Shown: positions 24,101-58,276 of the stretch, one piece after another
Position numbering within the stretch: the stretch's first letter is position 1
Layout of the letters: the number at the start of each line of letters is the position of its first letter
Assembly (NCBI GenBank): GCA_038087015.1
Contig: JASBNA010000020.1
Span: 558,001 to 622,000 of the forward strand
Reading direction: 5' to 3'
DNA: 64,000 nt
DNA from: Cerrena zonata
Lineage: Eukaryota > Basidiomycota > Agaricomycetes > Polyporales > Cerrenaceae
Translations under genes and position numbers: made by a program
Notes under the pieces: generated by a model
Told to the model about the DNA's origin: nothing
Database searches by the model: none
What the model saw: the letters and a program-made list of their open reading frames with translations, nothing else

Positions 24101-24421
24101 ACATAGAGAGCACAATACTGATCCGGAACCATTGCCATCGGTACGAAAACACCTACTGCCGCCTGGCAATTGCAAAACGTACAAAGGTGAACGGTATAAA
24201 TACCTATCTCTTTGGACAGTGAATCCTCAGTCCCCTTACTCATTCCATTTCATTGTTAATAGTTGGTGCTGGTTGGTGAGTATAGAGCTATTACTGACCC
24301 ATAAAATAGTTGTCTGACCTATTCTAGCCAACTGTTCTTACGCTAACGACTAGAAGTTCCCTCGTTTACATCTGCTCTTCTCACGACCTTACGAATACTC
24401 CACGTCCAAACACTGCTCATC
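21142..24421. other. 3.3-kb intergenic region with exon-like scraps
   Basis: No complete gene could be assembled. Short plus-strand pieces look coding: MSLATLLTSISPYQTPTARS at 22564, and a frame from an ATG near 22757 running to a GTATGT donor at 22866. They do not join into a known protein and stops lie between them, so they may be relics. The last 400 bases carry the promoter of the repeat-peptide gene; a C-rich leader immediately precedes its ATG. Confidence 0.35.
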
Positions 24422-25486
24422 ATGCGTTTCTCTGCCGTCATTGCTCTCGTCATTGCTGTTGTTTCATCGACCCCTTCAATCGCCTTTACTACATCGTAAG
24501 CCATCCAAAACCTACCACTGACCAACTATGGCTGATTATTCGATCATCTCAGAGGCCTTCATATTGGAATTCCCGAGAGCAATCCGGACTTTAAACCCTA
24601 CCCTCTATCTCTCGAAGCACGTGAACAGTTGCTTGGAGAGGCTCTCGCTCGTCGGAATCAAGACTTGTGAGTGTTGTCATGCAACTGATACCATAATATT
24701 CTTAAGCTAATACTATGTTCAGAACCTTGAAGAAGGTTTCTAGTAAGCCAGTCCCGCCCAGACTTGTGAAGTTGCCTCGGAGATATAGCTCGGTTATTGC
24801 TCGCGATGAACTCGACGCCCGCACCTGGGCTGTGGATCCTAAGACGTATTTCCTGACTTTCAAAGAGACTCGAGACGACGAGTAATTATTGCATCTTCAA
24901 TCATATACTAAAGCTTTCTGACAACTAGTTCAATTTTAGATTAGCCAAGCGAATTATCGGTTCGGAAATTACGCCCGCATTGTCCAAATGGATGGCTCAA
25001 CATCCTAACATCAAATGGGCTCGGGACGACGAGTAAATCTCAATTTCTTAATCATATTCTAAAACTTATTAACGTTTATCTCAATATTAGGTTAGCCAAG
25101 CGAATTATCGGTTCGGAGATTACGCCTGCATTGTCTAAATGGATGGCTCAACACCCTAACATCAAATTTGCTCGAGATGACGAGTGATTATGAGTTTCCC
25201 GATCATATCCCAAAGTTTATTGACATTCATTTCAATTCTAGATTGGCCAAGCGAATTATCGGTTCGGAAATTACGCCCGCATTATCCAGATGGATGGCTC
25301 AACACCCTAACATCCAATTCGCTCGAGATGACGAGTAATTATGAATTTCCCAATCATATCCCAAAGTTTATTGACATTAATTTCAATTCTAGACTGGCCA
25401 AGCGAATTATCGGCTCGGAGATTACGCCTGCATTGTCTAAGTGGATGACTCAACATCCCAATATCATGTGGGCCCGGGAGTATTAG
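24422..25486 (+). CDS. secreted multi-copy peptide precursor with four tandem repeat exons and kexin sites
   Basis: Seven exons: 24422-24495, 24553-24666, 24723-24881, 24940-25032, 25091-25183, 25242-25334, 25393-25486. All introns are phase 2 and 56-58 nt. Exon 1 is a classic signal peptide (MRFSAVIALVIAVVSSTPSI then AFTT). Exons 2-3 form a pro-region with dibasic ALARR and LPRR sites. Exons 4-7 each encode one 31-residue unit opening LAKR, followed by IIGSEITPALSKWM and ending near ARDDE. Lys-Arg fits the fungal kexin Kex2, which would release about four near-identical peptides. The variable positions lie near the unit's C-terminus (NIKWARDDE, NIKFARDDE, NIQFARDDE, NIMWAREY). Nucleotide changes between units are mostly synonymous, implying selection on the peptide. 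No domain or known precursor family was recognised. Alternatives are a pheromone-like, defence or RiPP precursor, or a structural repeat protein. Function unknown. Confidence 0.8.
24940..25486 (+). repeat. four-unit exon-intron tandem repeat, exact 151-nt period
   Basis: Repeat exons start at 24940, 25091, 25242 and 25393, i.e. steps of exactly 151 nt (93-nt exon plus 58-nt intron). Introns within and just before the array (24882-24939, 25033-25090, 25184-25241, 25335-25392) are all 58 nt. Units 1 and 3 share the codon choices GAA/CCC/TCC, while units 2 and 4 share GAG/CCT/TCT; introns 3 and 4 are the most alike. Confidence 0.93.
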
Positions 25487-27677: not shown

Positions 27678-28501
27678 GATTATAGATTGTTGATCATGGA
27701 TTAGTAATATATAGTACGGAAGCTTTGAAGACGATGAGACTACACTAATATTAATATTTTTGTGTTGTTCCGAATGTTTAATGACAGTCCTACAGTCAAG
27801 TGGATGACGGTAAGCCTACGAGATTGAGGAAAACATTAAACGTGGAATGTCCGGACATCTTACCCACACCCACAAGTGAAGAAACAGGACTGACCCGAAC
27901 CGCACTGACATGAGTGAATTATGATCCTTTTGTTTGGCATCTAGTTCGCGCCCCCATCCCATTTTTTTTTGGATACACCGTACGCCTACCTGCTAGACCT
28001 ATTTTGCAATACCTATACCCGGTGCTTAGAACCATATAATATTTATCCCACCGTATTCATGCCTTCCCATTATCTTTTTCATTGAGTCATCGTGAGAAGA
28101 CCTGGCCCTGTGGTGTGCTAAATATTCGGTTACGATGTGAAGAGAGTTACTGGGATTTAGTTGGAGGAGACGTTCTCCATGAAGATATGCATAGTAGAGC
28201 AATACTGATTTTGGTGCGATCGAGGTGATACATCAACATTGGAGATCACAACCACTACTATTGTACATTGATACGATCGAGCTAGGAGCCAGTTTACTAA
28301 TTCTTTTCTGGTTTTATCGACGTTCATAAAGAAATAGAGCTACGCGAGAGAAGAGCGGACTATTGATTTGTGGGGGTTGTACGACGGGGCTCATTGCACA
28401 AAATGGAAGTACCATTAAAGCTAAAATATCTGTGAGTAAGCCATCGATAGGACGTGCGTTCAACTTACCGACTATTAGAGCAACCATTTCCAGCTTCCAA
28501 C
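27678..28501. other. intergenic, edge of a tandem segmental duplication
   Basis: No gene. From about 28250 the sequence matches 30420 onward (shared core GAGCCAG...TTCTTTTCTGGTTTTA), marking the left end of the duplicated segment described separately. Confidence 0.6.
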
Positions 28502-29036
28502 TTAGTAGGTATTGGTAGCGGTCAGGGAGCAGTTCAATGTCTTCCCATCCTCACTCAAATTGGTGTTGACGATGATCTGTCTCGATAGAATATCATGAGA
28601 TCAATGTGAAATCGATAGGAAGAGAAGTATTGACCTGATATGTATAAACCACGTTGCCCCGGACAAAAGAGCCCTTAACGTTTTGGGTGCCAGTTTCTTC
28701 TGCCTTCTGGACAAGCTGGTCATCGATAGTGAGGCTCTTGGCTGCTGTTATGATGCGAGCAGTCCCAAGATTGAAGAAGATAACCAGTTGGTTCTGGTCA
28801 TCGAGCAGAAGATAGCTGGCTATGCCTCGGACCTTAGCAGGGGTGACCGTGGCCTGGTAGATGCCCCCATTGTTGGGTGTCGGAGCGGTTTGGTTCGGAA
28901 CATTAGAGGGCTGGGTAATGACCTTGCCAGCGGTCAAGAATGTCTTGTCGTTGGAAGGGATGAGAGTAAACTCTTCACTTGGAGTAGCCGTCTTGCCTAG
29001 CTCGTTCTTGATGGTCAAAGTGACTATGGTGGCCAT
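28502..29036 (-). CDS. small beta-rich protein, duplicated paralogue A
   Basis: Minus-strand exons 29036-28635 and 28576-28502 (58-nt intron) give 158 residues starting MATIVTLTIKNELGKTATPS. No signal peptide, no membrane helix, and a rhythm of short beta-strand-like segments (FTLIPSNDKTFLTAG, NGGIYQATVTPAKVRGIASY, NQLVIFFNLG, VVYTYQ then IIVNTNLSEDG). Ends TATNTY. About 60-65% alike by eye with the gene at 30616-31254. No family recognised; size and fold rhythm recall small cytosolic mushroom lectin-like or defence proteins, but no diagnostic motif supports that. If the intron is ignored, the frame ends 12 codons into it. Confidence 0.7.
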
Positions 29037-29505
29037 AATGTCTGAAGATCTGAAGAGACATCATCAATAAGGTAGCTGCGGACGACAACTTAGATGGTGC
29101 GCACCTGAGATACGAGTTGAACACTAGTGCAAAGGAGGAGATCAGTTGGAGAGTAAAGCTGCATTTGCCGTCGTTTTATCTTGTTTTGCGTCTCGGTCAG
29201 ACGGAGGCTCAAAAAAATGGCAGCTACGGAGACCGAGGTTGGAGATGTGAACGAAGAACAATTGAGCCTTATCGAGCCGTGAAGATACAACAGTGCAATA
29301 GTAGGTCAGCAGGTCGGTAGGTAAGACTTCCTACTGGTGTCCCGTGGTCAAACCTGGTCGTACAGACCATCGTTGGAAGTAAGTTCTGTCACAAACATTC
29401 CGAAGACATGGATCCATAGCACCTGTAGTAGTAGAACAAACTTGATCCCTTTTCGAAGAGCCTCTTCAACAAAAGTAATAGTAATCAGAAGGGACCCTCA
29501 AAAGA

Positions 29506-29911
29506 TCAGTCAAAAGGAATACTCGGCGGAGGTAATCGTCCAAAACACCCTTTACTTTGTTGAACCTTATGCAACTTGACCTTGTCAGAGCGACCTGGAA
29601 GCTTTCGGAGGGTCAGTTGTTCGAGGGTGCCTCCTGCAGTATTCCGAGTCATTACTAGAGCGACATCGGCGATTTCAATGGCCGTCAGGAACTGTGGGCT
29701 ATCCTGTCATCAGTAGACAGCTAGCATTTTGTCATATGCACTCATGATGAGTAAATTTTGACACCTTTCATAGAGTATACATACTAGAATGTCACGGTAT
29801 CAATACCTTCACTATAGTATGGGCACCAGCGGGAAAAATGGTATTTCCTGCTTTCACTTGATGAATGGAAGTAGCAAAATCTCCGAGTTCCAGACTTCCA
29901 GTGAGATTACC
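29506..29911 (-). pseudogene. two-exon fragment of an unidentified gene, copy 1
   Basis: Two minus-strand blocks, about 29911-29807 and 29703-29506, join through GT...AG signals. They read GNLTGSLELGDFATSIHQV, AGAHTIVK, then DSPQFLTAIEIADVALVMTR and a basic tail ending PPPSIPFD. Upstream the frame is broken, although a block TTYATGGDWDGAF near 30160 may be an earlier exon. A diverged second copy lies at 31697-32110. It looks like the C-terminal part of a longer protein; a glycoside hydrolase tail is only a guess. Confidence 0.4.
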
Positions 29912-30615
29912 TTACTGCATAGTAGTACATCACAGCCCGATTTGGGACTGGTAGTTGAACTTGGCGCAGCAGAATATCAAGAAGGTGGTAATGGCTTCTC
30001 GAACATCAGCAGTTCCCTCGGTTCCTCACAGTCGGGCCGCGGCTCCGCTAGGTTAGCAAGCCTCCCCCTGTCCATGCTTCTCATGTTTCTTGACCGTATT
30101 CGGCAACCCCCCCCTCAAGGTCGTATTTCATCGAAATGCACCATCCCAATCGCCGCCGGTAGCATACGTGGTTGAAACAGGCGTACCTGTTTTGAGACAA
30201 CTCATGATTTTTCTCCTCTTTGACGGTAAATATTCATCCACATGAGGCATCATCAAACGGCCCCCGCTTAACGCAACTCACTTCCGCTACAGATATAAGT
30301 TTATCTCAATTGCTCACGGTTTCGTCCGTGAGAATATTGGACATGGTGGCTTACAGTCTCCATCCGCATAGAAACATATGATATTTGGTGAGACTAGGTG
30401 AGTACTGTGTCGGACAGGTACCAATACTATTGCACATTGATACAATCGAGCTGGGAGCCAGTATACTATTCTTTTCTGGTTTTACCGACATTCGTAAAGG
30501 AATAGAGTTACGCGAGAGACGAGTGGACTGTTGATTTCTGTATCACCAAACACTAGCCTGAGGATGTGATTCATACGACGGGGTTCATTGTATCAAATGG
30601 GTAGACCTGTTGAAG

Positions 30616-31254
30616 CTATGCTATCCGTGGGTTAGGTTATCCTGTCATCAGCAATGTGTAGGTCTTCAACTTACCTCCAATTAAAGCTTCCGACTCCGAT
30701 TCAAGGCCTTGTATGTACATAGTATACGTATTGGTGGCCGTCAGGAAGCACATTGTTACCTTCCCGTCCGTACTCGTAGTAGTGTTGACGATTATCTATC
30801 TCAGTACAATCTGATGAGATCAATTTGAGTTCGATGGAAGAAAAATATTGACCTGAAATGTATAAACCTCATTGTTCTGGACAAAAGACCCGCTGACCCT
30901 ATTGCTGCCATTGTCTTCTGCCTTCTGAACGAGCTGGTCGTCGAGCTGAAGATTCTTGGATATTATCAAGAGGCGACAATTCCCATAAGTGAAGAAGATA
31001 ACCAGCTGATTCTGGTCATCGGGCAGAAGATAGTTGGCTATGCCTCGAACCCTAGGAGGGTTGGACGTGGCCTGGTAGATGCCCCCATTGTTGGGCTTCG
31101 AGGCGGTTTGGTTTGGAACACTAGAGGGCTCGGTAACGACCTGGCCAGCGACCAAATACGCCTTGTCTTTGTGAGGCGTCAAAGTGAATAATTCATCGGG
31201 TTGGCCCATCTTGCCCAGCTGGTTGTCGATGGTCAAAGTGACTGTGCTAGTCAT
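30616..31254 (-). CDS. small beta-rich protein, duplicated paralogue B
   Basis: Minus-strand exons 31254-30853, 30795-30675 and 30620-30616 (introns 30796-30852 and 30621-30674) encode about 175 residues, opening MTSTVTLTIDNQLGKMGQPD. The first exon is exactly as long (402 nt) as in paralogue A. The last part continues past the point where A stops, adding about 17 residues (TMYIQGLESESEALIG). The start is the ATG at 31254, matching the start of A. Same lack of signal peptide and helices. Function unknown; paralogy with A is clear. Confidence 0.68.
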
Positions 31255-31696
31255 GGTATCTGAAGACACGCCATTAATAGGGTAGATATTAAGGATAACT
31301 TGTATGGCACAAACCTGAGGTACGAGTTGGACTTAGCTCTAAGCGGGTAAGTACATCAATTGCTGCTGTTCGATGTCCTTTTACCTCGTTTTGTGTCTCG
31401 GTCAGGTGAAGGGGAAGATGTGATAGATATTGAGACAGAGACTTACGCAATAATTAGCGATGCGAATGAAGAGCGATGATAAGGTGACTGGAACGAACTT
31501 CTTCTTCGAAGGCCCTCTCCACAACAGTAACTTAATAAAAAATACAGAGGAGAGAAGAGACCTCAAACCATCAGTCAAAAGGTATGCTCGGCGGAGGTAA
31601 TCGTCCAGGATATCCCTTAACTTATCCGAGTCAAACCTTCTCCATCTTGAACTTATCAGAGCGACCTGGAAGCTTTCAGAGGGTCAGTGGCCTCAA

Positions 31697-32110
31697 TTAT
31701 TCGAGGGTGCCTTCTGCAGTATTCCAAGTCATTACCAGAGCGACATCGGCGGTTTCAATGGCCGTCAGGAACTGTGGGCTATCCTGTCATCAGTAGACAG
31801 CGAGCATTTTGTCATATGCACTCACGGTGAGTAAAATTTGACACCTTTCATAGAGCATACATACTAGAATGTCACGGTATCAATACCTTCACTATAGTAT
31901 GGGCACCAGCAGGAGAAACGGTATCTTGCCGCTTTCACTAGATGAATGGAAGTAGCAGAACTGTCGCAGATGAATATTGAGTAACGGCATCACGCGTTTG
32001 TGCTCAGCTCAGTGTGCCTTGACCGTATTCGGCAAAGACCCTCCTCCAGGTCATATCCCATTGAAATGCACCATCCCGACCACCGCCGGTAGTATACGTG
32101 TTGTCGCAGC
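31697..32110 (-). pseudogene. decayed second copy of the unidentified gene fragment
   Basis: Aligns with 29506-29911 and its upstream block. The readable pieces are NTYTTGGGRDGAFQWDMTW (near 32090), AGAHTIVK, and DSPQFLTAIETADVALVMTW, which now ends early at a TAA (31697-31699). Between the first two blocks the frame is shifted relative to copy 1. Both changes mark it as non-functional. Confidence 0.5.
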
Positions 32111-32137
32111 CAGGGTTGTCGTACCACGATAGACATT

Positions 32138-43672: not shown

Positions 43673-45223
43673 ATGTCTGCCAACGTTGCAAGACACGCGA
43701 ATGCCACTCCTGCACCAACAAGGACAGCATACAGAGAATGGAACGTACGTAAAGATACCTCTTCCCTTCATTTCGACGCGCTGAAAGTGTAATGTCAAGG
43801 CCGTTGGCAAAAGGCAAAGCCTCACCTTGCCAATCCCAACGCCATCTGCGTCCCCAAGTGCCAGTGACTCCTCTGTCCAACCCGATGGCCTGTCGTCGAA
43901 TGCATCGTCGGAATCGAGCTCGGCTCCTCCAAGCAGTGAGCCATCGTCCACTCCCTCAAGCACACCTTCGTACGTCGCGTCGATGTAATACACCAGGTTG
44001 GACTCTATTGACCCTTCTCTTTAGGTCGCAGGAAAGCTCTTCCCAACCACCGTCGTCTCAGCCACCTTCCTCTTCCCCATCCTCGACACCAACGAGCACG
44101 CCTTCATCTACACCCGAATCCAGCTCAAGCAGCTCATCACTCCCACCTTCATCATCGTCTTCCTCCTCCTCGCAGAGTCTGCCTCCCAGCAGCTCTGCAG
44201 AGAGTAGTTCTGCTTCACCACCTCAATCGTTAACATCTGCCCCACCTACACAGAGTAGTGCCAGCTTCTCTAGTGCCCAGACCACAATAACAACGACCTT
44301 TGTTACGGATATCAATGGAGTACAGCAAACGGTGCGTCGTACGTACTCATCCTGAATCACACACTCAATAACATTTGCTATAGATTACCTCTGCCATTCC
44401 CACTACGATTGACTCTGCCCCCTCAAGTTCCGGTGGTTCCTCTCAACAGAGAGCTATCATTGCGGGCAGCGTCATTGGGGGTATTGCCCTCCTAGCCATC
44501 GTTGCATCCCTGATCCTTTTCACCAAACGCAAGAATTACCGCAGGCTCCGTGTCTTTGGCCAGCCACGCTCAAGATCCATGCTCCTTGCTGGAGAAGACT
44601 TTGACGATAGCGACCCGCCTATGACTCAATACCGTGATTACCCTCCGACGCCCACCTCTGGGGGTACCTTGCCGAGCCGTCATACCCCATATAGGGACAA
44701 CCAACAAGTACAATTCCCAATGGCAAGTAGCAGTGCAAACACGTCCCCTCATCTAGCTACCTTGCGGGCTTCAGAAAGTGGATCTATATTCAGGGAGGAT
44801 GTTTGGCCACCTCCCGGCGAGGCTAGTCGGTTTGTTGACCCTATCTTGGCCACCTCTAGTCAGGTCAACCTGGGCGGGATAGTGGAGGACGTGATGGGAG
44901 AACATAACCGCAGGACCCCTTCTCCGCTACCACAGCCCCGACCACCTTCCTACCATCTCCGTAGCGGTTCATTTGGTTCGGATCCGTTCAGAGCTACACC
45001 ATCCCCATCGGTGCATTCGCACCAACCGCGGAATTCCATGATGGATGATAGTGACCCTGCGCTGATAACACCGCCCAAGTTATTTGTGACCAACCCCAAC
45101 TCGACAACGTCTCCCACGTCGCCTTCGCCTACCTCGAAACCGAGAAATTGGCTTGAGCGGTCACCTACGCTGAGGGTTGTCCCAGACGATGGCAGGCGTG
45201 TCTGTCTGATAACCGATTCGTGA
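43673..45223 (+). CDS. Ser-rich single-pass membrane protein, possible wall sensor
   Basis: Exons 43673-43744, 43800-43969, 44025-44331, 44384-45223, about 460 residues. A Ser/Pro-rich ectodomain (tracts such as SSSSSSLPPSSSS, likely heavily O-mannosylated) ends in TTITTTFVTDINGVQQT. One transmembrane helix (AIIAGSVIGGIALLAIVASL) with stop-transfer FTKRKNYRRLR follows, then a ~210-residue cytosolic tail rich in SP/TP sites and proline (PPTPTSGG, PSPLPQPRPPSY). This architecture matches Mid2/Wsc-like stress sensors and the many mushroom proteins of that layout, but no Wsc domain is present. The N-terminus lacks a clear signal peptide; exon 1 is the least certain part. Confidence 0.72.
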
Positions 45224-49115: not shown

Positions 49116-50276
49116 AGAGAACTGTAGAATGGAGTTGGCAGTGGGATGAGAATTGGAGCTGTATATGTGGACTCACTAAGTGAAAGTTCAGATAGCTTTG
49201 TGGAGATGCTCTGTGCTCAACATGAAACCAACTTTTATTTATACTCTCAGAAACAAAAATTCAAGATCTCAACTTGAACATGAATTTCTGAAGCACTGAC
49301 ATCTACTTTCTCAGGGTGATGCTTGGAATCACTCTCGCAATTATACCACTTTTGTTTAGCAGGATATGTGGCCGGTTGTGAGGCAAGCCGCCACTACTGT
49401 CACACTAATGTAGGGAAAATTACGTCTGAGTTGTAGTAAATCAGACATATTTCCAAGTCCAGAGTCTGACCAGTGTGAGACTCTGAATTCTTAGTCTTAT
49501 TCTCATGGTGAGTGATGGACATTTGCTTGAGGCCACAATTGTCAATAGGAGCTGTAATGAGAGTAATATTAGTGTTCACAGATGAGCGAGAGCTAGTAGT
49601 CGTTGAAGTGAGACTGCCAGTGTTTCGACATGTAATCGGAGTATGATGGTCGATCGCAAGATCGATTTAGCGCTAAAGATGCCCCAACTCGATTTTCGGC
49701 AACCATGATGTAATGGTTAAGTCCATTACACGGCCATTCTAGGTACAACATGGAACACTGTAGCACGGTTTCCGGATCTCCGTAGATAGTGACTCCACAT
49801 GAACACCTTCGCTTAAATGTTCGTATAGTTTCCTTTTTTATCCATGGGCACTGTAGATATATTCTTCCTCTCCTCTATCTCTCGTTTTATGTTTGTTTAT
49901 ATTTGCATTGGACTTGGCGTAGCTACGTAGTAAATACCGCGCACCCGCTTACTGTACCCTTGTCGAATCAACGCCCGTGTTGGCATACCCTACGGTCTAC
50001 ATTCCTTGCCTGACTCTCAGCTCCTCGATTCTCTCCTGACTTCTATCTACTTGTAACGCTCCGCTTCTCGTCTTCGGAAGGCCGCTTTGACGTGCCCTTC
50101 ACAGTTTGATTCGACCCAACCTTATTTGGGACTCTAGAACTCACGGTACCGTCCTTCTTTTGATTGCCCTTCTGGGTACCTCCAACTTTTTCGAATTTTT
50201 GCGCAACATTCTACTCGTTTTCCTTGCTTCTTTTTGCTTTCTATTCACGAGTTAGTTACTACTGAACACCTTAAAA
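49116..50276. other. region upstream of the gypsy gag remnant
   Basis: Probably the 5' part of the retroelement whose gag starts at 50277 (leader and perhaps an LTR), but no LTR partner exists in the window to define it. A hairpin TGTAATGG...CCATTACA lies at about 49710-49732. A pyrimidine-rich leader precedes the gag ATG. Confidence 0.35.
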
Positions 50277-51423
50277 ATGTTTTCAGGAACAGATACTGAT
50301 CCCACGGCTGCCTGGGGTGGTGACAACACAACCCATCCCACGCCTGTCACTACTGGGAACGCTCCTGGTGTTCCTCCTCCCATGACTGGCTCATCCTCGG
50401 AACAAGAAAGGCAAGGTGTGCTGTCTGCCATCTTTGCTCTGGGCCATCATGTCGATGGCGTTCGCGCTGTCCAACACCAACTCAGCCAATCTCTCGAGGC
50501 TCTCACCAACCGCATCCTCTCTGCTCCTCCACCAGCACCTCAAACAACTCAACCGGCTCCAGCTTCCCAACCTCCTGTCGCCCAGGACACCTTTACCAAC
50601 CCGTCCTTCCCACGCGGTGCTCCTCGGTTCAAGGAACCATTCGTCTTTAGTGGCTCTGCTGCTGAAGTCGAACCTTGGATCGATGAAGTCTCCAATGCCG
50701 TGCACCTCCAACGTGCGACTCTTACTACCGACTTCGACAAGGCCATCTATATTGCTGGCTACTTGAAGGTTGGCAATCCGAAGTCCTGGTACTATGGGAT
50801 CAAGTCGCGAGAGGATCTTCTTTGGAACTTTGAAGAACTCATCAAGAATTTCCGAGCACACTTCGGCGACTCGAACTTGCAAGCAACAGCTCTCCGCAAG
50901 CTCAAGTCTCTCAAGCAAACCGGACCTTGTGCTGCTTATGCCTCGCGTTCTCGCGAGCACCATGAGCACCTTGATCTTGACGACTTCACCAAGATCAATT
51001 ACTTCTATGAAGGTCTCAAGGATGGTGTCAAGGATCTTCTCCTCACCATTGACCGCTCTGACAATTTTGACACCTTTGTTGATCAATGTGTCTTGCTGGA
51101 CAATCGTCTTCATGAACGAGAACTGGAACGTAAACAGTTCTCGAAAGGTTCGTCTCATCGCTCTCAGGACTCCAAGCCTCGTGCTAGTCCTCCTTCTTTT
51201 GTTTCTCCTGCTCCCTCGACCTCGTCTCAAGTCGTTCCGATGGAGATCGACGCTGTGAAGCGTGGTCCTATCTCGGCTGATGAAAAGGCTCGTCGCAAAC
51301 GCGAAGGCCTTTGCTTCTATTGCGGTCAGGGTAAGCACCGCGTTGAGGACTGTCCAAACATGTCCGAAAAAGCGAAAACCGCTTTCAAAGCCCGCAGGAA
51401 TGCTAACTCAGCTTCCTCGTCGG
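50277..51423 (+). CDS. gag: Ty3/gypsy-type Gag, 3'-truncated (second element)
   Basis: Open frame from ATG 50277. Pro/Gln-rich N-terminus, then a retrotransposon-gag domain (PRFKEPFVFSG, AIYIAGYLKVGNPKSWYYGI, LRKLKSLKQTG, INYFYEGLKDGVKDLLLTI) and a CCHC zinc knuckle CFYCGQGKHRVEDC near 51317-51358. The protein is cut at 51423, where the TGTTAC end of another element's 5' LTR begins; the residues read beyond that point come from LTR sequence. No protease or RT of this element remains in the window. Sequence differs clearly from the Gag at 52415-53863, so it is a separate family. Confidence 0.85.
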
Positions 51424-51766
51424 TGTTACAACGAACGTACACTTTTTCTTTTCTTTTCCTTTTCCTTTTCCTTACTTGTACTTGTGACTCAGTAACCACA
51501 TGGCCCGGTAGCACATGAACGATCACCAGACTAGCTTACCTATCAATTCTCCCACATGACATCATCTGCTCCACGATGATGTCATAACTGACGTCATTAT
51601 GACATCATCCTAGTCTAGACCATTCTATTCTCTCGCGTAGTACAGCCACGGTCCCTAGTATATAAACCCAGTAGCTCTAGCTTGTATTCCTTAACCTGAC
51701 CTAGGCAATCTACCCTTTCTTACCCTGTTTAACTTGCACCTGCGTGAAAGGGCTTCGCCCGTAACA
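51424..51766 (+). repeat. 5' LTR of the gypsy element
   Basis: Starts TGTTACAACGAACG, ends CTTCGCCCGTAACA; the six terminal bases form an inverted repeat. Contains a CT-rich tract (51440-51475), a cluster of ATF/CREB-like sites and a TATATAAA. Confidence 0.93.
51556..51666 (+). promoter_or_regulatory. LTR promoter: four ATF/CREB-like sites plus TATA box
   Basis: ATGACATCAT at 51556-51565, ATGATGTCAT at 51576-51585, TGACGTCA at 51589-51596 and ATGACATCAT at 51599-51608 are four closely packed palindrome-like bZIP sites. A TATATAAA follows at about 51658-51665. The 3' LTR keeps all four (59481-59534), with one changed to a perfect ATGACGTCAT. Confidence 0.7.
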
Positions 51767-51768
51767 AA

Positions 51769-51778
51769 AGGTCAGGTT
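51769..51778 (+). other. primer-binding site, self-priming type
   Basis: AGGTCAGGTT lies two bases after the LTR. It is not a tRNA-type TGG site. It is the exact reverse complement of AACCTGACCT at 51693-51702, close to where transcription should start about 30 bases after the TATA box. This matches the Tf1/sushi mode, in which the mRNA 5' end folds back to prime reverse transcription. Confidence 0.75.
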
Positions 51779-51863
51779 GCTCTTACCATCGCTATCGTCC
51801 CACACGTTAGCGACAGAACTCTGAACCCAGAAACCTCGAAACCTGAACCCTGAAACTCTGTCT

Positions 51864-52193
51864 ATGACATCTCTCCTTGAACTCCTTGTAACACTTCTCT
51901 TCCTTGCCCAAGTTACCCTTGCCTACATCGTATACCGATACTTCCAGCACATCGAAAACATTGTCACTGTTACCTACCAGAACGTCTACGCCATCAGCAC
52001 TGAAATCCGAGAACACCACCACTACTGGGACTACGAACGAGACGAACTTCTCCAGCGAGTAGAAGACCTCCAGAACATTGACCGACAGCTTAACAACTTT
52101 GCCCAACGCCTTCGACAGAACCCAGAACCAACCCGTCCACAAGTCAAGCAAGAACGAAACCCCACCCCAGGACCCTCTCGTCGCCGACACTAA
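51864..52193 (+). CDS. small ORF upstream of gag, membrane helix plus coiled coil
   Basis: 109 residues from an ATG inside the retroelement leader. MTSLLELLVTLLFLAQVTLA then YIVYRYF forms a signal-anchor-like helix. The rest is polar and coiled-coil-like (IREHHHYWDYERDELLQRVE, NIDRQLNNFAQRLRQ) and ends in a basic tail GPSRRRH. It is not a known gag domain. It may be an accessory protein or an upstream ORF that controls gag translation. Confidence 0.55.
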   Translation: MTSLLELLVTLLFLAQVTLAYIVYRYFQHIENIVTVTYQNVYAISTEIREHHHYWDYERDELLQRVEDLQNIDRQLNNFAQRLRQNPEPTRPQVKQERNPTPGPSRRRH

Positions 52194-52204
52194 ATTCCTA
52201 TAAA

Positions 52205-52273
52205 CGTGTTAGTCAGCCCAAAAGGCAAACACGGATAGTTTTACACGCGTTAGCCAGTCGAGAGACAAACGCG
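52205..52273 (+). other. two tandem RNA hairpins with compensatory base changes
   Basis: Hairpin 1: outer stem CGTGTT (52205-52210) with AACACG (52228-52233), inner stem GCC/GGC (52216-52218, 52224-52226). Hairpin 2: outer stem CGCGTT (52246-52251) with AACGCG (52268-52273), inner stem GTC/GAC (52257-52259, 52264-52266) closing a GAGA tetraloop. Both are followed by GATAGTT. Stem differences between the two copies are paired. Confidence 0.65.
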
Positions 52274-52414
52274 GATAGTTCCCAGGAAGTCGATAACGCT
52301 TGGCGATCCCAGGTGCTCGAGTCTTCTTTGGAGAAGTGTCTTCCTCGCAGCACTGAGCAGAAAACCTCAGCTGTCTCGCACAACTGCTTGCAGTTGGGAC
52401 ACTTTTAGTACATA

Positions 52415-53863
52415 GTGGCCAATAGAAATTTTAGCAATCCTCCACACGGGTCTGTCTTTTCCAACGGTCTTTACCGGCTAGACGACCGAACTCTCACCTT
52501 TGAACGTGTCTGGCGATTCGCCGACGGTTCCCAAGAGTCTGTTCCCACAAACAGATTCCACGATCCCAGCCTCACCCACAACGTCTCCGAAACAGTCCCA
52601 CCACCGCGGTCACGAGTTTCAACATCAACTGGACACCGTTTCCTTAACAAGCGACTCATCGAATTCAACAGTCAGAACGGTACCTGGGAATACACTAGTA
52701 ATTCCTCGGGGCAACCTCTCGAAAACCATTACGCCGTTCTTGACAGTGAGTGGGCAGACACAGGAGCACAGGCATCCAGCTCAGGTACTTCCTCCACACC
52801 GACACCACCCATACCCTCGTCGCAACCCAGACCAACAACTCCGCTACCCAGACCACAGACGCCTCCCAGACCAAAGACTCCACCACCACGCAGCCGAACT
52901 CCAGTCCAGAATACCCCAACTCAAAGCATTCCACCGCCGAACCCCCAATCCCAACCCTCTTCATCCATCTCTACCACCCAAACCAATATGTCGACTAACG
53001 CCAAAATCGAACTCAAAACCAAGTTCGATGGGAATGCCAATCGTGTCCGAGAAATCACCAAACACTGCGACTGGAAGTTTGCCCTCGACCCCACAACATT
53101 CGACACCAACTTCAAGAAGTCCATCTACCTCCTGTCATGTTGTGAAGGAGGAACGGCAGGACCCTGGGCAGTCGAATACAGTGACACCCTGGACAAAGCA
53201 AGCACGGCCACAGGAGCCAAGGTGGAAGATGTGTTTGACTGGAACAAAGTCAAGAAAGCATTCATCGACTACTTCTCACCTGTTTCCCAAGTCTCTTCTG
53301 CAATCTCCGCAATGAGAACACTGAAGCAGACGGGAACAGTAAAGGAGTACGTTGCAGCCTTTCGACCACTTCGAGAGCAGTCAAACATCACGGAAGTTGC
53401 AGTTCTCCGAGATTATTTCTTGGATGGGCTCAAAGATGGATTGGCTTACAAGATCATCTCAATTGACCCTGCGACGATCAAGACCTTCGAAGATCTTTAT
53501 GGAGCAGCAGAAAGGTTGGACGAAGTATACCAATCCCGACCCAAGAAGGAGCAACCCTCGAAGACCACTTATCGACCCCCGGTGAGATACCAAAGCCGTG
53601 GAGGGAGATCTTTTGGTCGATTCAAGACAATTCGCCGACTTACCGATAACGAACGAGAGAAGATGATGAAAGAAGGAAGATGTTTCAGGTGCCGACAGGT
53701 AGGGCACATGGCTAGGGAATGTCCTAATGGAGACTCAAACCACTCCCACGTACGACAAGTAGATACCAACACTCCTGCTGACAAAGTCAGAGCCATCATC
53801 AATGGCCTGGACGATGAGGCAAAGAAGGAAGCCATAGAGTCTTTGGAGAACCAGGGTTTTTGA
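52415..53863 (+). CDS. gag: Gag of the gypsy chromovirus
   Basis: Frame open from about 52415 to the TGA at 53861-53863. There is no ATG before the one at about 52988 (MSTNAKIELKTKFDG), so translation either starts there, uses the GTG at 52415, or the upstream part is joined by splicing. The N-terminal 190 residues are disordered and Pro/Thr-rich but open with an ordered FSNGLYRLDDRTLTFERVW block. The capsid-like domain has KKSIYLLSCCEGGTAGPWA, MRTLKQTGTVKEYVAAF and YFLDGLKDGLAYKI. A CCHC zinc knuckle CFRCRQVGHMAREC binds RNA. The frame ends in GGGTTTTTGA, a -1 slip site just before the stop, leading into pol. Confidence 0.88.
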   Translation: MANRNFSNPPHGSVFSNGLYRLDDRTLTFERVWRFADGSQESVPTNRFHDPSLTHNVSETVPPPRSRVSTSTGHRFLNKRLIEFNSQNGTWEYTSNSSGQPLENHYAVLDSEWADTGAQASSSGTSSTPTPPIPSSQPRPTTPLPRPQTPPRPKTPPPRSRTPVQNTPTQSIPPPNPQSQPSSSISTTQTNMSTNAKIELKTKFDGNANRVREITKHCDWKFALDPTTFDTNFKKSIYLLSCCEGGTAGPWAVEYSDTLDKASTATGAKVEDVFDWNKVKKAFIDYFSPVSQVSSAISAMRTLKQTGTVKEYVAAFRPLREQSNITEVAVLRDYFLDGLKDGLAYKIISIDPATIKTFEDLYGAAERLDEVYQSRPKKEQPSKTTYRPPVRYQSRGGRSFGRFKTIRRLTDNEREKMMKEGRCFRCRQVGHMARECPNGDSNHSHVRQVDTNTPADKVRAIINGLDDEAKKEAIESLENQGF

Positions 53864-56800
53864 ACCGGCGAACTGTCTCAACGTCAGTCTCGCTAGGAAT
53901 AACGATCTCGCATGTACTTGTAGCAGAATTAAACGGACAGTCAATGAATATCCCGTTATCTATTATGCAGCGAGCGAAAACCGTTGAACCAAAAGCCCTC
54001 ATTGACAGTGGAGCTGGAGGAGTCTTTATCGATGCCAATTATGTCGCAAAGCATCAACTTCAGACCACAAAACTGCTAACTCCAATACCAGTCTTCAATG
54101 TCGATGGAACCCCTAATGTCAGAGGATATATTACCGAATGCGTATGGGCCAGTACAAAGTTAGGAGACAACAATCACCTAATTAAGTACCTAGTCACCTC
54201 CCTTGGGGACCAAGACGTAATTCTGGGACTCTCATGGCTTCGGCAGTACAATCCGAAGATTGACTGGATCAAAGGAACTGTTGAATTCAGCAAGACAAGG
54301 CTCTATACTCTCACCAGTCGTCTCCGACGAATCTTCCAACTGGAATCGCAACTGCTCCCTAGCTGTGGTCAAGTACGGAAGGTTACATGTGAAACGGTGG
54401 ATGACGATGAAGAAGGAAGGTCCGACATTCCCCCCAAGGAATCTTCGGGGATAATAGAAGAAGTATCCCAGGAGATTGATGAAGCACAGCCTGACTCGGA
54501 ATCCATGGTGGTAGAAGAAGAAGTACCACAGGAGAACGAAGAACAATTTCAGGAACCAACGGTGGAAGAAAGACTAAAGGCATTACAACCTCAAGAACTT
54601 CTTATCTCATACATCCAAGGGGAATCTACTTGTCATGTTTGGATAAAAGAGGACGACCCATTAACCATAGAAACCGAGTCTGAAACACCTCGGCACTACG
54701 GACCACGGATAGGACGCATCACGCGCACCATGCATGGGATGAGATATACCTATGGATGTGATGCTTGGATCCGTGCAAAGGTCAACCCGGCAATGGCAAT
54801 GGCACAGGAAGCTTCCAAGAAGGAGATGGCAAAACCACTCGAAGAAATGATTCCTAAAGACTATCACGAGTTCTTAGACGTCTTTGAGAAAAAGAAAGCG
54901 GAAAGGTTTCCAGAGTCACGTCCTTATGATCATGCCATCAACTTGAAGCCTGACTTCCAGCCAAGGAATTTCAAAATTTACCCGCTATCCCCTCTCGAAC
55001 AAACCAAGCTAGACGAGTTCTTAGATGAAAACCTTCGGAAAGGATATATTCGTCCCTCTCAATCGCCGATGGCAAGTCCCTTCTTTTTCGTAGGAAAAAA
55101 GGATGGTTCATTACGTCCTTGCCAAGACTACCGGTATCTCAATGAAGGAACTATCAAGGATGCGTATCCCTTACCACTAATCAGTGAATTATTGGACAAG
55201 TTGACAGGGGCTACCATCTTTTCAAAATTAGACCTTCGAAGCGGATACAACAATGTCCGCATCAAAGATGGAGATCAATGGAAAGCGGCATTCAAAACCA
55301 ACAGAGGACTATTCGAACCCACGGTCATGTTTTTTGGACTATGTAATTCCCCTGCCACATTCCAACACATGATGAACGACCTGTTTCGAGATATGTTGGA
55401 TGAAGGATGGCTTGTCATTTACATGGATGACATGCTAGTCTTTTCAAAAGACAAGGAAACACACCGACGACGGATTCAACGCATCCTACAAAGGCTACGG
55501 GAGAACGATTTGTTTTTGAAGGCGGAGAAATGTGTCTTTGATGCAACAGAAGTAGAATTTTTAGGCCTTATTGTCAAACCAGGTGAACTGCATATGGACC
55601 CAGTCAAATTGGAAGGAATCCGAACTTGGCCACAACCGGAAACGGTCAAGCAAGTACGATCCTTCCTAGGATTTGGAAACTTCTACCGTAAATTCATTCG
55701 ACATTATGCAGAGCTCGCACGCCCACTGCATGACCTTACCAAGAAGGATGTCACATGGTCATGGACGGAAGAATGCCAGAAAGCATTTGACACGTTGAAA
55801 GCGAAATTTTCCTCGGCACCAGTTCTCAGTATTCCGGATCCCACCAAACCATTTGTATTGGAAACAGATGCCAGCAAATTTGCCACAGGTGCTGTTCTTC
55901 GGCAACGGGACATGAACGGAGATTGGCACCCATGCGGATTCCTATCACAAAGTTTTTCTCCCGCAGAGAAGAACTATGAAATCTATGATAGAGAACTACT
56001 TGGTATCATTCGTGGGCTAACCGCATGGAGGCACTATTTCGAAGGATCTTCACACAAGCTGGTTATTTGCAGTGACCATCAGAACCTCACATACTTCCGC
56101 ATGCCGCAACGGCTAACACCACGACAACGACGATGGCATCTATTCCTATCACGGTTTGACTACATCCTGAAACATGTACCAGGAAGCCAAATGGTTATCT
56201 CAGACACAATGTCCAGAAACCCCCTCTACAACGATGACAGTAGCGAAGACACGTTCCAGGTATTACTTCCAGATGCACTATTTGTACGAAGGGTGGATAC
56301 AACTCTGAAAGAACAAATACTCTCTTCCACAATGATGGATCCTATTGTGCGAGATGCAATAGAAGCCCTGAAGTCAAATGGTACGACCGGAATGAAAGCG
56401 GATCTTCATGACTGGGAAATCGAAGATGGCCTTATCACCTTCAAAGGACGGACATATGTCCCTCAAAATGAAGGTCTTCGCAGGCATATTGTTCACGACC
56501 ACCATGACCTACCTGTTATGGGACACCCAGGCATATTCAAAACGAAGGAGCTGGTTTCTAGGGATTATTGGTGGCCTGGTCTACATTCTTTTGTAACAAA
56601 CTATGTTTTAGGGTGCAGTGTCTGTCAACAGAATAAGGTCAACACTCACCCTACAGTACCACCGATTCATCCAATTCCCACAAAGTCAAATAGACCATTC
56701 GCAGACTGTTCCACCGACTTCATCACAGATCTCCCACTGTCTCATGGATACGATTCTATCATGGTCGTGGTAGACCATGGCCTTTCGAAGGGGGCAATTT

Positions 56801-57561
56801 TCACACCCTGCACAAAGAAGATCGATGCATTAGGAACAGCGGAAGCATTACACCAACACGTGTATAAAAGATTTGGGCTAATGGATTCTCTAATATCGGA
56901 CCGAGGACCCCAATTCGCTTCTCATGCGTTCAAGGAGCTATTACGCATCATTGGAACGAAATCCAAACTTAGCACCGCCTATCACCCGCAAACAGATGGA
57001 GAAACGGAACGGACCAATCAGGAATTGGAAGGATACCTTAGGATCTTCTGTGGCAATAACCCAGAACAATGGTCGACCCTCCTGGCAGATGCCGAGTTTG
57101 TTCATAACAACCGCATCCACGAATCAAGAGGAATGTCACCATTTTACATCATGATGGGATACAACCCCAAATCTATTCCCACCGCATATCCTAAAACAAA
57201 TGTCCCGGCAGTACAAGACCGCATCCAGAACCTCCAGAAGATTTGGGATGAAGCACGAGCAGCACACGAGTTAGCAAGAAGAAAGGTGGCAGACCGGGTA
57301 TCACGAAGATTTACCCCATTCACAAAGGGAACAAAGGTGTGGCTCGAAGGAAAGAATCTCAAGCTCGGATATGAACATCGGAAATTAAAACCGCTAAGGG
57401 AAGGGCCCTTCGAAATCACCGAAGTTCTAGGACCATTGACGTACAAACTAAAACTTCCTTACCATTGGAAGATTCATGACGTCTTCCATGCATCCCTGCT
57501 GACCCCCTACCGTGAGACCGAAGCACATGGACCGAACTTCCTCCTACCTCCTCCGGAGCTA
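53860..57561 (+). CDS. pol: Pol polyprotein (protease, RT, RNase H, integrase), cut before its chromodomain
   Basis: Open in the -1 frame relative to gag. Aspartic protease with ALIDSGAGG (Asp about residue 49), an acidic linker (about residues 180-240), RT with KLDLRSGYNNVRI, GLCNSPATF and the catalytic YIYMDD-type VIYMDDMLVF (near residue 521), RNase H starting LETDASKFATGAVL, integrase zinc finger (HDHHDLPVMGHPG...CSVCQQNK), DDE core (DCSTDF, ISDRGPQF, HPQTDGETERTN) and a GPY-like GPFEITEVLGPLTYKLKLPY. At 57562 a CACTG-ended insertion begins; the residues read from there to the stop at 57651 are encoded by the insertion. The chromodomain continues at 58277. No other stop or shift was seen, so the insertion is the main lesion. 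Confidence 0.93.
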
Positions 57562-58276
57562 CACTGGATCGTAGCCCAAATTTTAGGCTTCATAAAAGTA
57601 AGGTCAAATTTTATAAAAAGTCTCTTACAAAATATGATTTTAAGCATGTAAAAATTGTCAAAAAATGCAGAATTTCAGCAAAATCTGATGAATCATAAAA
57701 TCCTTGACTAATTCAGACTTTTGTATCTAATTTTTAAACTTTAGAAATATTGAATTTTTGTTTATTTTTTGTTGGAGAAAAGTTTACTATGCAAAATTCA
57801 AAATTTTGATGCACTTTTGTTTCTCTAGAAATCATAATATAATTATATATATCAAAATAAAGTGTTATAAATAGAGAGTCTAGAGAGAAGATATAGACTA
57901 CTATTGTTGGTAAATTATAGTCTCTGTCAATTATACTATCTGATAGAGATATTTAAGTATGCAATATCACTGACCTTTTCAAATTAGCAGTTTAAATTTT
58001 ATATCACTTTTGGAGAAACAAAAGTGCATCAAAATTTTGAATTTTGCATAGTAAACTTTTCTCCAACAAAAAATAAACAAAAATTCAATATTTCTAAAGT
58101 TTAAAAATTAGATACAAAAGTCTGAATTAGCCAAGGATTTTATGATTCATCAGATTTTGCTGAAATTCTGCATTTTTTGACAATTTTTACATGCTTAAAA
58201 TCATATTTTGTAAGAGACTTTTTATAAAATTTGACCCTACTTTTATGAAGCCTAAAATTTGGGCTACGATCCAGTG
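57562..58276. mobile_element. CACTG-ended inverted-repeat element (non-autonomous), copy 1
   Basis: 715 bp, AT-rich, no ORF. Ends CACTGGATCGTAGCCC and its reverse complement, with terminal inverted repeats of about 265 bp each. Flanked by CTA at 57559-57561 and CTA at 58277-58279, a 3-bp target duplication. CACTA/G termini plus a 3-bp duplication match the CACTA (CMC) superfamily. Removing the insert and one CTA rejoins the pol frame through the codons Glu-Leu-Ile-Asp. Confidence 0.88.

Follow-up and report, generated by a model that had tools for sequence, protein, structure and literature searches.

What kind of product is encoded by a short tandem array of exons in the genome of Cerrena zonata, a wood-rotting fungus of the Polyporales (Cerrenaceae)? 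The array is located in a stretch of 64,000 nucleotides, here called the window, which corresponds to positions 558001-622000 of contig C20 in a 55.5-Mb assembly of 171 contigs. The gene (24422-25486) consists of seven exons, and its spliced translation yields a precursor of 239 amino acids with a likely signal peptide, a pro-region and four units that start with LAKR and are encoded by one exon each (Table 1). All six introns are GT-AG introns of 56 to 58 nucleotides in phase 2. The initial annotation had thus placed the four-unit array, its exons and its reading frame correctly. It had also assigned a length of 93 nucleotides to all four unit exons, which is true of three of them, while the last is 94 nucleotides long including the stop codon and ends with WAREY. 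The assumption that the gene was cryptic and missed by ORF calling was wrong because a public gene model exists: the hypothetical protein QCA50_011469, already predicted and deposited, is identical to the spliced translation over 239 of 239 residues. An additional intron in the 5' untranslated region is likely, since its borders are common to a paralogue described below.

Table 1. Features of the repeat gene, with positions given in the window.
Feature	Position	Strand	Basis
Probable 5'UTR intron	~24276-24327	+	GT...AG by eye; paralogue borders same; 55-column match, 80% identity over 24227-24280
Exon 1, likely signal peptide MRFSAVIALVIAVVSSTPSIA	24422-24495	+	10-residue Kyte-Doolittle mean peak 3.5; paralogue exon 1 also 74 nt, phase 2
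Exon 2, pro-region (EAR, ARR sites)	24553-24666	+	Splicing and translation
Exon 3, pro-region with PRR, IARDELDAR, TRDDE	24723-24881	+	Splicing and translation
Exon 4, unit 1, LAKR-IIGSEITPALSKWMAQHPNIKWAR-DDE	24940-25032	+	Splicing and translation
Exon 5, unit 2, LAKR-IIGSEITPALSKWMAQHPNIKFAR-DDE	25091-25183	+	Splicing and translation
Exon 6, unit 3, LAKR-IIGSEITPALSRWMAQHPNIQFAR-DDE	25242-25334	+	Splicing and translation
Exon 7, unit 4, LAKR-IIGSEITPALSKWMTQHPNIMWAR-EY-stop	25393-25486	+	Splicing and translation
151-bp tandem array, duplicated unit = exon + intron	24869-25473	+	TRF, 4.0 copies, score 767

We consider it highly probable (roughly 0.88) that the precursor is a Kex2-processed repeat protein (KEP). 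The criteria given in the available text of PMC6339444 are an N-terminal signal peptide, at least 4 fragments bounded by KR or RR of which at least 3 are similar, and repeats that cover at least 15% of the length. Cutting at KR and RR yields seven fragments, four of them repeats, and the repeats comprise 119 of the 239 residues; hydropathy (Kyte-Doolittle only) and sequence fit a signal peptide. The precursor appears to fit the criteria as far as these are testable, with the signal peptide judged by hydropathy only. The proposal of an undescribed multi-copy kexin-processed precursor is therefore upheld in part: the KEP criteria fit and no paper on the gene was found among the literature matches listed, but the gene was already annotated and its class is known.

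An intron-bearing kexin gene was identified on contig C3, with a P-domain match and 63% identity to the query over residues 2 to 236, the query having been taken from C24, a probable yeast contig. It was noted that sampled 9-kb stretches of C24, C43, C63 and C67 had GC contents of 34% to 37% and long uninterrupted frames, compared with 46% to 49% GC in samples from C1, C3, C11, C20 and C22, and that the best match of the C24 kexin among solved structures was yeast Kex2. The assembly probably contains yeast contigs (C24, C43, C63 and C67).

In the processing that we propose, the signal peptide would bring the precursor into the secretory pathway, and kexin would cut after each LAKR and, within the pro-region, after RR. 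The acidic spacer DDELAKR would be removed by a further cut that follows the conserved AR closing each core, and the terminal Arg may be trimmed off by a Kex1-type activity. The predicted products are four linear peptides of 23 to 24 residues with the pattern IIGSEITPALS[K/R]WM[A/T]QHPNI[K/Q/M][W/F]A(R). The calculated MH+ values of the four 24-mers with AR at the end are 2747.48, 2708.47, 2736.44 and 2780.44, each lower by 156.10 if the Arg is lost to Kex1. According to the available text of PMC9769878, linear KEP peptides have been detected by mass spectrometry in agaricomycetes, and knock-outs of six KEPs in Coprinopsis cinerea gave no apparent phenotype, with a possible role in biotic communication suggested by the authors. 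The peptides considered here may likewise act in outside signalling or biotic interaction, biotic communication being, by analogy, the likeliest role.

A monobasic AR is, to our knowledge, not a classical Kex2 site, and it is quite possible, if short of probable, that a precursor of this same class is processed by Kex2 and Kex1 only. The acidic tail would then be kept, giving 29-mers of the form IIGSEI...ARDDELA and a 26-mer ending with ...WAREY from the last unit, with calculated MH+ values of 3290.70, 3251.69 and 3279.66 for the 29-mers and 3072.54 for the last. LAKR is the sole dibasic site of the array, and the pathway described in the available text of PMC9769878 names KEX2 and KEX1 alone. 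However, AR is invariant, while the two residues preceding it vary, in an alignment of six unit variants drawn from this gene, from its second copy (contig C119) and from the paralogue, an alignment that excluded unit 2 of the gene and the first of the paralogue units. The other invariant positions were D, ELAKR, I, PAL and H, and the 2 units outside the alignment also end with AR.

Processing by Kex2 and Kex1 only is also opposed by a likely second KEP in the genome. This gene was reached from a C. cinerea KEP peptide and is located on C2 at about 1393.0 kb (frame 1402-1935 of that stretch), where three copies spaced 96 to 99 bases apart match the peptide weakly (E 0.17-0.34 per copy). It is likely to be a conserved agaricomycete KEP. 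All repeats are contained within one open frame of 178 codons, the cores read QDTNTTPAELATKAPxGVIEPY, and the same core follows the acidic spacers SRREVEELERR, KRDVEELEAR and TRRDFEEVDTIAKR, whose ends are LERR, LEAR and IAKR. LEAR thus occupies the place of the dibasic sites in the sister units, and the C2 spacers share with AR-DDELAKR the succession of a basic end, an acidic stretch and a basic end. Together, these 2 observations support AR-DDELAKR as a putative double-cut spacer that would release the linear peptides.

The paralogue, QCA50_011805 on contig C22, has exons of 74, 96, 93, 93, 93, and 223 nucleotides, five introns that are all in phase 2, and a similar 5' leader with an intron. 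Two of the 93-nucleotide units match unit 1, with 14 and 19 of 31 residues identical, and none of 20000 shuffles gave as good a match. The first 93-nucleotide unit retains only the anchors; its core is identical at 2 of 24 residues, 4903 of 20000 shuffles were as good, and the core match is no better than chance. The paralogue thereby contains two clear units followed by a basic tail, compared with a survey threshold of three units. The front of the unit, which had been called invariant, is so within the gene at 24422-25486, whereas only ITPALxKW or INPALxKF, H and AR persist in the paralogue.

No relatives were found outside C. zonata in three protein searches covering 5.8 billion sequences, which returned only QCA50_011469 and QCA50_011805; two of the searches scored about 8000 candidates sharing most words each, so that diverged relatives may be missed. 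Ustilago proteins, such as the Rep1 repellents, were absent from the protein matches listed. Searches of the genome with the unit, the paralogue unit and the 5' leader gave matches only on C20, C119, and C22, the leader search being insensitive since it did not return the known paralogue. Within the reach of these searches, the gene appears to be confined to C. zonata. The initial annotation had named a lack of homologous units in related species as evidence against its reading, and this is partly the case, none having been found in another species within the searches made. Most members of this class are narrowly distributed; according to the available text of PMC7329392, 2560 of 7878 KEPs lacked a homologue.

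We consider it improbable that the protein is instead a secreted HEAT-like helical solenoid of 31-residue repeats that stays whole. A weak phmmer match (E 0.022) was obtained to a designed alphaRep protein, a family in which the repeat length is 31, and the predicted structure contains helices in each unit. Yet the mean pLDDT of this low-confidence model is 36, with no residue at or above 70 (2-row alignment), every unit boundary carries KR, and the paralogue passes into a basic tail after two clear units. A fold of low confidence is, weakly, what would be expected of a precursor. Among domain matches to the precursor, DUF3460 (26 bits versus a cut-off of 25; best stretch 18 residues, none passing alone) and LPD22 (27.5 versus a cut-off of 28.6; best stretch 20 residues) were rejected because the best stretches are short and the scores of the repeat copies add up. 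PF26154 was listed as a precomputed match.

The initial annotation had also pointed to dikaritins (ustiloxin, asperipin, phomopsin), in which a signal peptide is followed by KR-flanked repeats, a plan also described for them in the available text of PMC9769878. The comparison does not hold up, and a modified, cyclised product of this type is very improbable: none of 45 matches to UstYa (PF11807, DUF3328) in the genome was located on C20, C119, or C22 in an exon-wise search of a capped number of candidates, which might overlook a heavily split gene, and the four cores contain no Tyr. Several of the UstYa matches lie near one another on C11 at about 472-537 kb, and others are on C46; these are candidate real dikaritin loci.

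A Pfam scan of 20 of the 53 stop-free stretches of at least 130 codons in the window gave matches to malic enzyme, ubiquitin-like, OPT transporter, MAM33, mandelate racemase-like, p24, and retrotransposon domains, as well as an F-box-like match below its cut-off; markers of peptide-modifying clusters were absent from the matches in these 20 stretches. The upstream OPT oligopeptide transporter (18.3-20.1 kb) was considered as a partner and is a weak candidate because the genome has 75 OPT matches but the paralogue contig C22 carries none of them. An LTR-type retrotransposon with matches to gag, protease, reverse transcriptase, RNase H, and integrase is located at 50256-57648.

The substitution patterns point to a coding array under constraint. 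In all 6 pairwise comparisons of the units (27 codons), pS (0.17-0.64) exceeded pN (0.03-0.10), which suggests purifying selection between units and supports coding. The introns upstream of the units differed at 4 to 20 of 58 sites between unit pairs. Furthermore, the copy on C119 has an intact frame and has kept all six splice-site pairs, with changes at 19 of 720 exon sites and at 16 of 346 other sites (introns and one 3' base), resulting in 9 amino acid differences and a pN/pS of 0.34. The array is therefore more than chance, and the frame-breaking changes that the initial annotation had considered as counter-evidence are not present in the second copy. That the array is degenerating or untranslated would agree with no relatives having been found in other species, but is barely credible given that pN was below pS in 6 of 6 unit pairs and that the C119 copy is intact at this pN/pS. 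Three differences between C20 and C119 fall within the array; 2 of these (F/W and Q/K) are at the variable end of the unit, giving modest support to the notion of a tuned end, whereas the third (A/V) is located elsewhere.

About 28.4 of the 57.4 kb of C119 are collinear with positions 12962-45181 of the window at 95% to 98% identity, indels aside, and the remainder gave no match to the window of at least 100 bp. Two 4-kb probes taken from this remainder gave no hit on C20. Both matched C103, the first along its full length at 100% identity, the second at 95% over 422 bases with a weaker match further on. Near 29 kb on C119, corresponding to position 45181 in the window, the match switches from C20 to C103. 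This weakens the view of C119 as plainly the other haplotype. The contig may derive from that haplotype after a rearrangement, but it may also be a segmental duplicate or result from a misjoin. The argument for coding constraint stands under either origin and is unaffected. It was also noted that C119 has about 0.1 kb where the window has about 4.2 kb (27926-32131). The window segment carries two related small open frames on the minus strand (28596-29060 and 30823-31332), which are 63% identical over 144 residues and have no Pfam match.

Each of exons 4 to 6 is a unit exon in phase 2-2, and duplication, loss, or skipping of one of them would for this reason alter the dose and mix of peptides with the frame unbroken. 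The copy number may have risen through tandem duplication of this frame-neutral cassette of exon plus intron. Retention of an array intron (GA|GTAA or GA|GTGA) gives a stop right after a complete unit; phase-2 GTRA introns behave in this way generally, but here the stop falls on the unit borders. A more far-reaching idea, which we regard as doubtful, is that of an exon-coded peptide cassette in which splicing sets the released end-variants (KW, KF, QF, MW), combined with a double-cut basic-acidic-basic spacer common to a second, otherwise unrelated KEP of C. zonata. One exon per unit is not obligatory for KEPs because the C2 gene holds its units in one open frame, a comparison of gene structures that involves this one gene as a small sample. 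KEPs are numerous and their function is mostly unknown. The present gene offers a test case: its predicted products are exact, its paralogue has diverged, the C119 copy differs at the variable end of the units, and the same genome supplies a one-frame KEP for contrast. It would serve as a tidy test of array growth by exon duplication and of whether Arg-only sites (LEAR, WAR) are cut in agaricomycetes. The remaining interest lies in the modular arrangement of the exons and in the proposed double-cut spacer, which can be tested.

Among known peptide systems, the ascomycete alpha-factor precursors share the multi-copy Kex2 plan. The likeness drawn to them by the initial annotation fails on the Ste13 signature, defined in the available text of PMC6339444 as XA/XP after KR, which is absent, with II following LAKR in all four units. 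The host is, moreover, a basidiomycete, and basidiomycete sexual pheromones are not of the repeated alpha-factor kind according to the same text. None of the 33 STE3 receptor matches in the genome was located on C20, C119, or C22. Basidiomycete mating pheromones carry a C-terminal CaaX box, which is absent from this precursor with its WAREY end. In borosins of the OphMA type, the precursor is fused to a methyltransferase domain; no methyltransferase was present among the 9 Pfam matches of the precursor with E values up to 10. The closest likeness is to the KEPs of Le Marquer 2019 and Umemura 2020, in the likely signal peptide, the at least three near-identical fragments bounded by KR or RR, and the repeats that make up about half of the protein. 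Unlike the surveyed KEPs, the gene has one unit per exon, and no sequence relative was found outside C. zonata. Neither "exon" nor "intron" was found by a word search of the main texts of these 2 studies, as far as available, and no description of KEPs with one exon per repeat was found in the literature searched, which mostly excluded subscription papers. KEP 497993 of C. cinerea (Vogt 2022) and the C2 gene, its likely relative, resemble the present gene in their secreted-type repeats and basic sites, and the C2 gene also in its acidic spacers, whereas the core is unrelated, the C2 cores begin with Gln and the repeats are in one frame. The gene studied here belongs to a class already known in fungi, to which it is a neatly modular addition.
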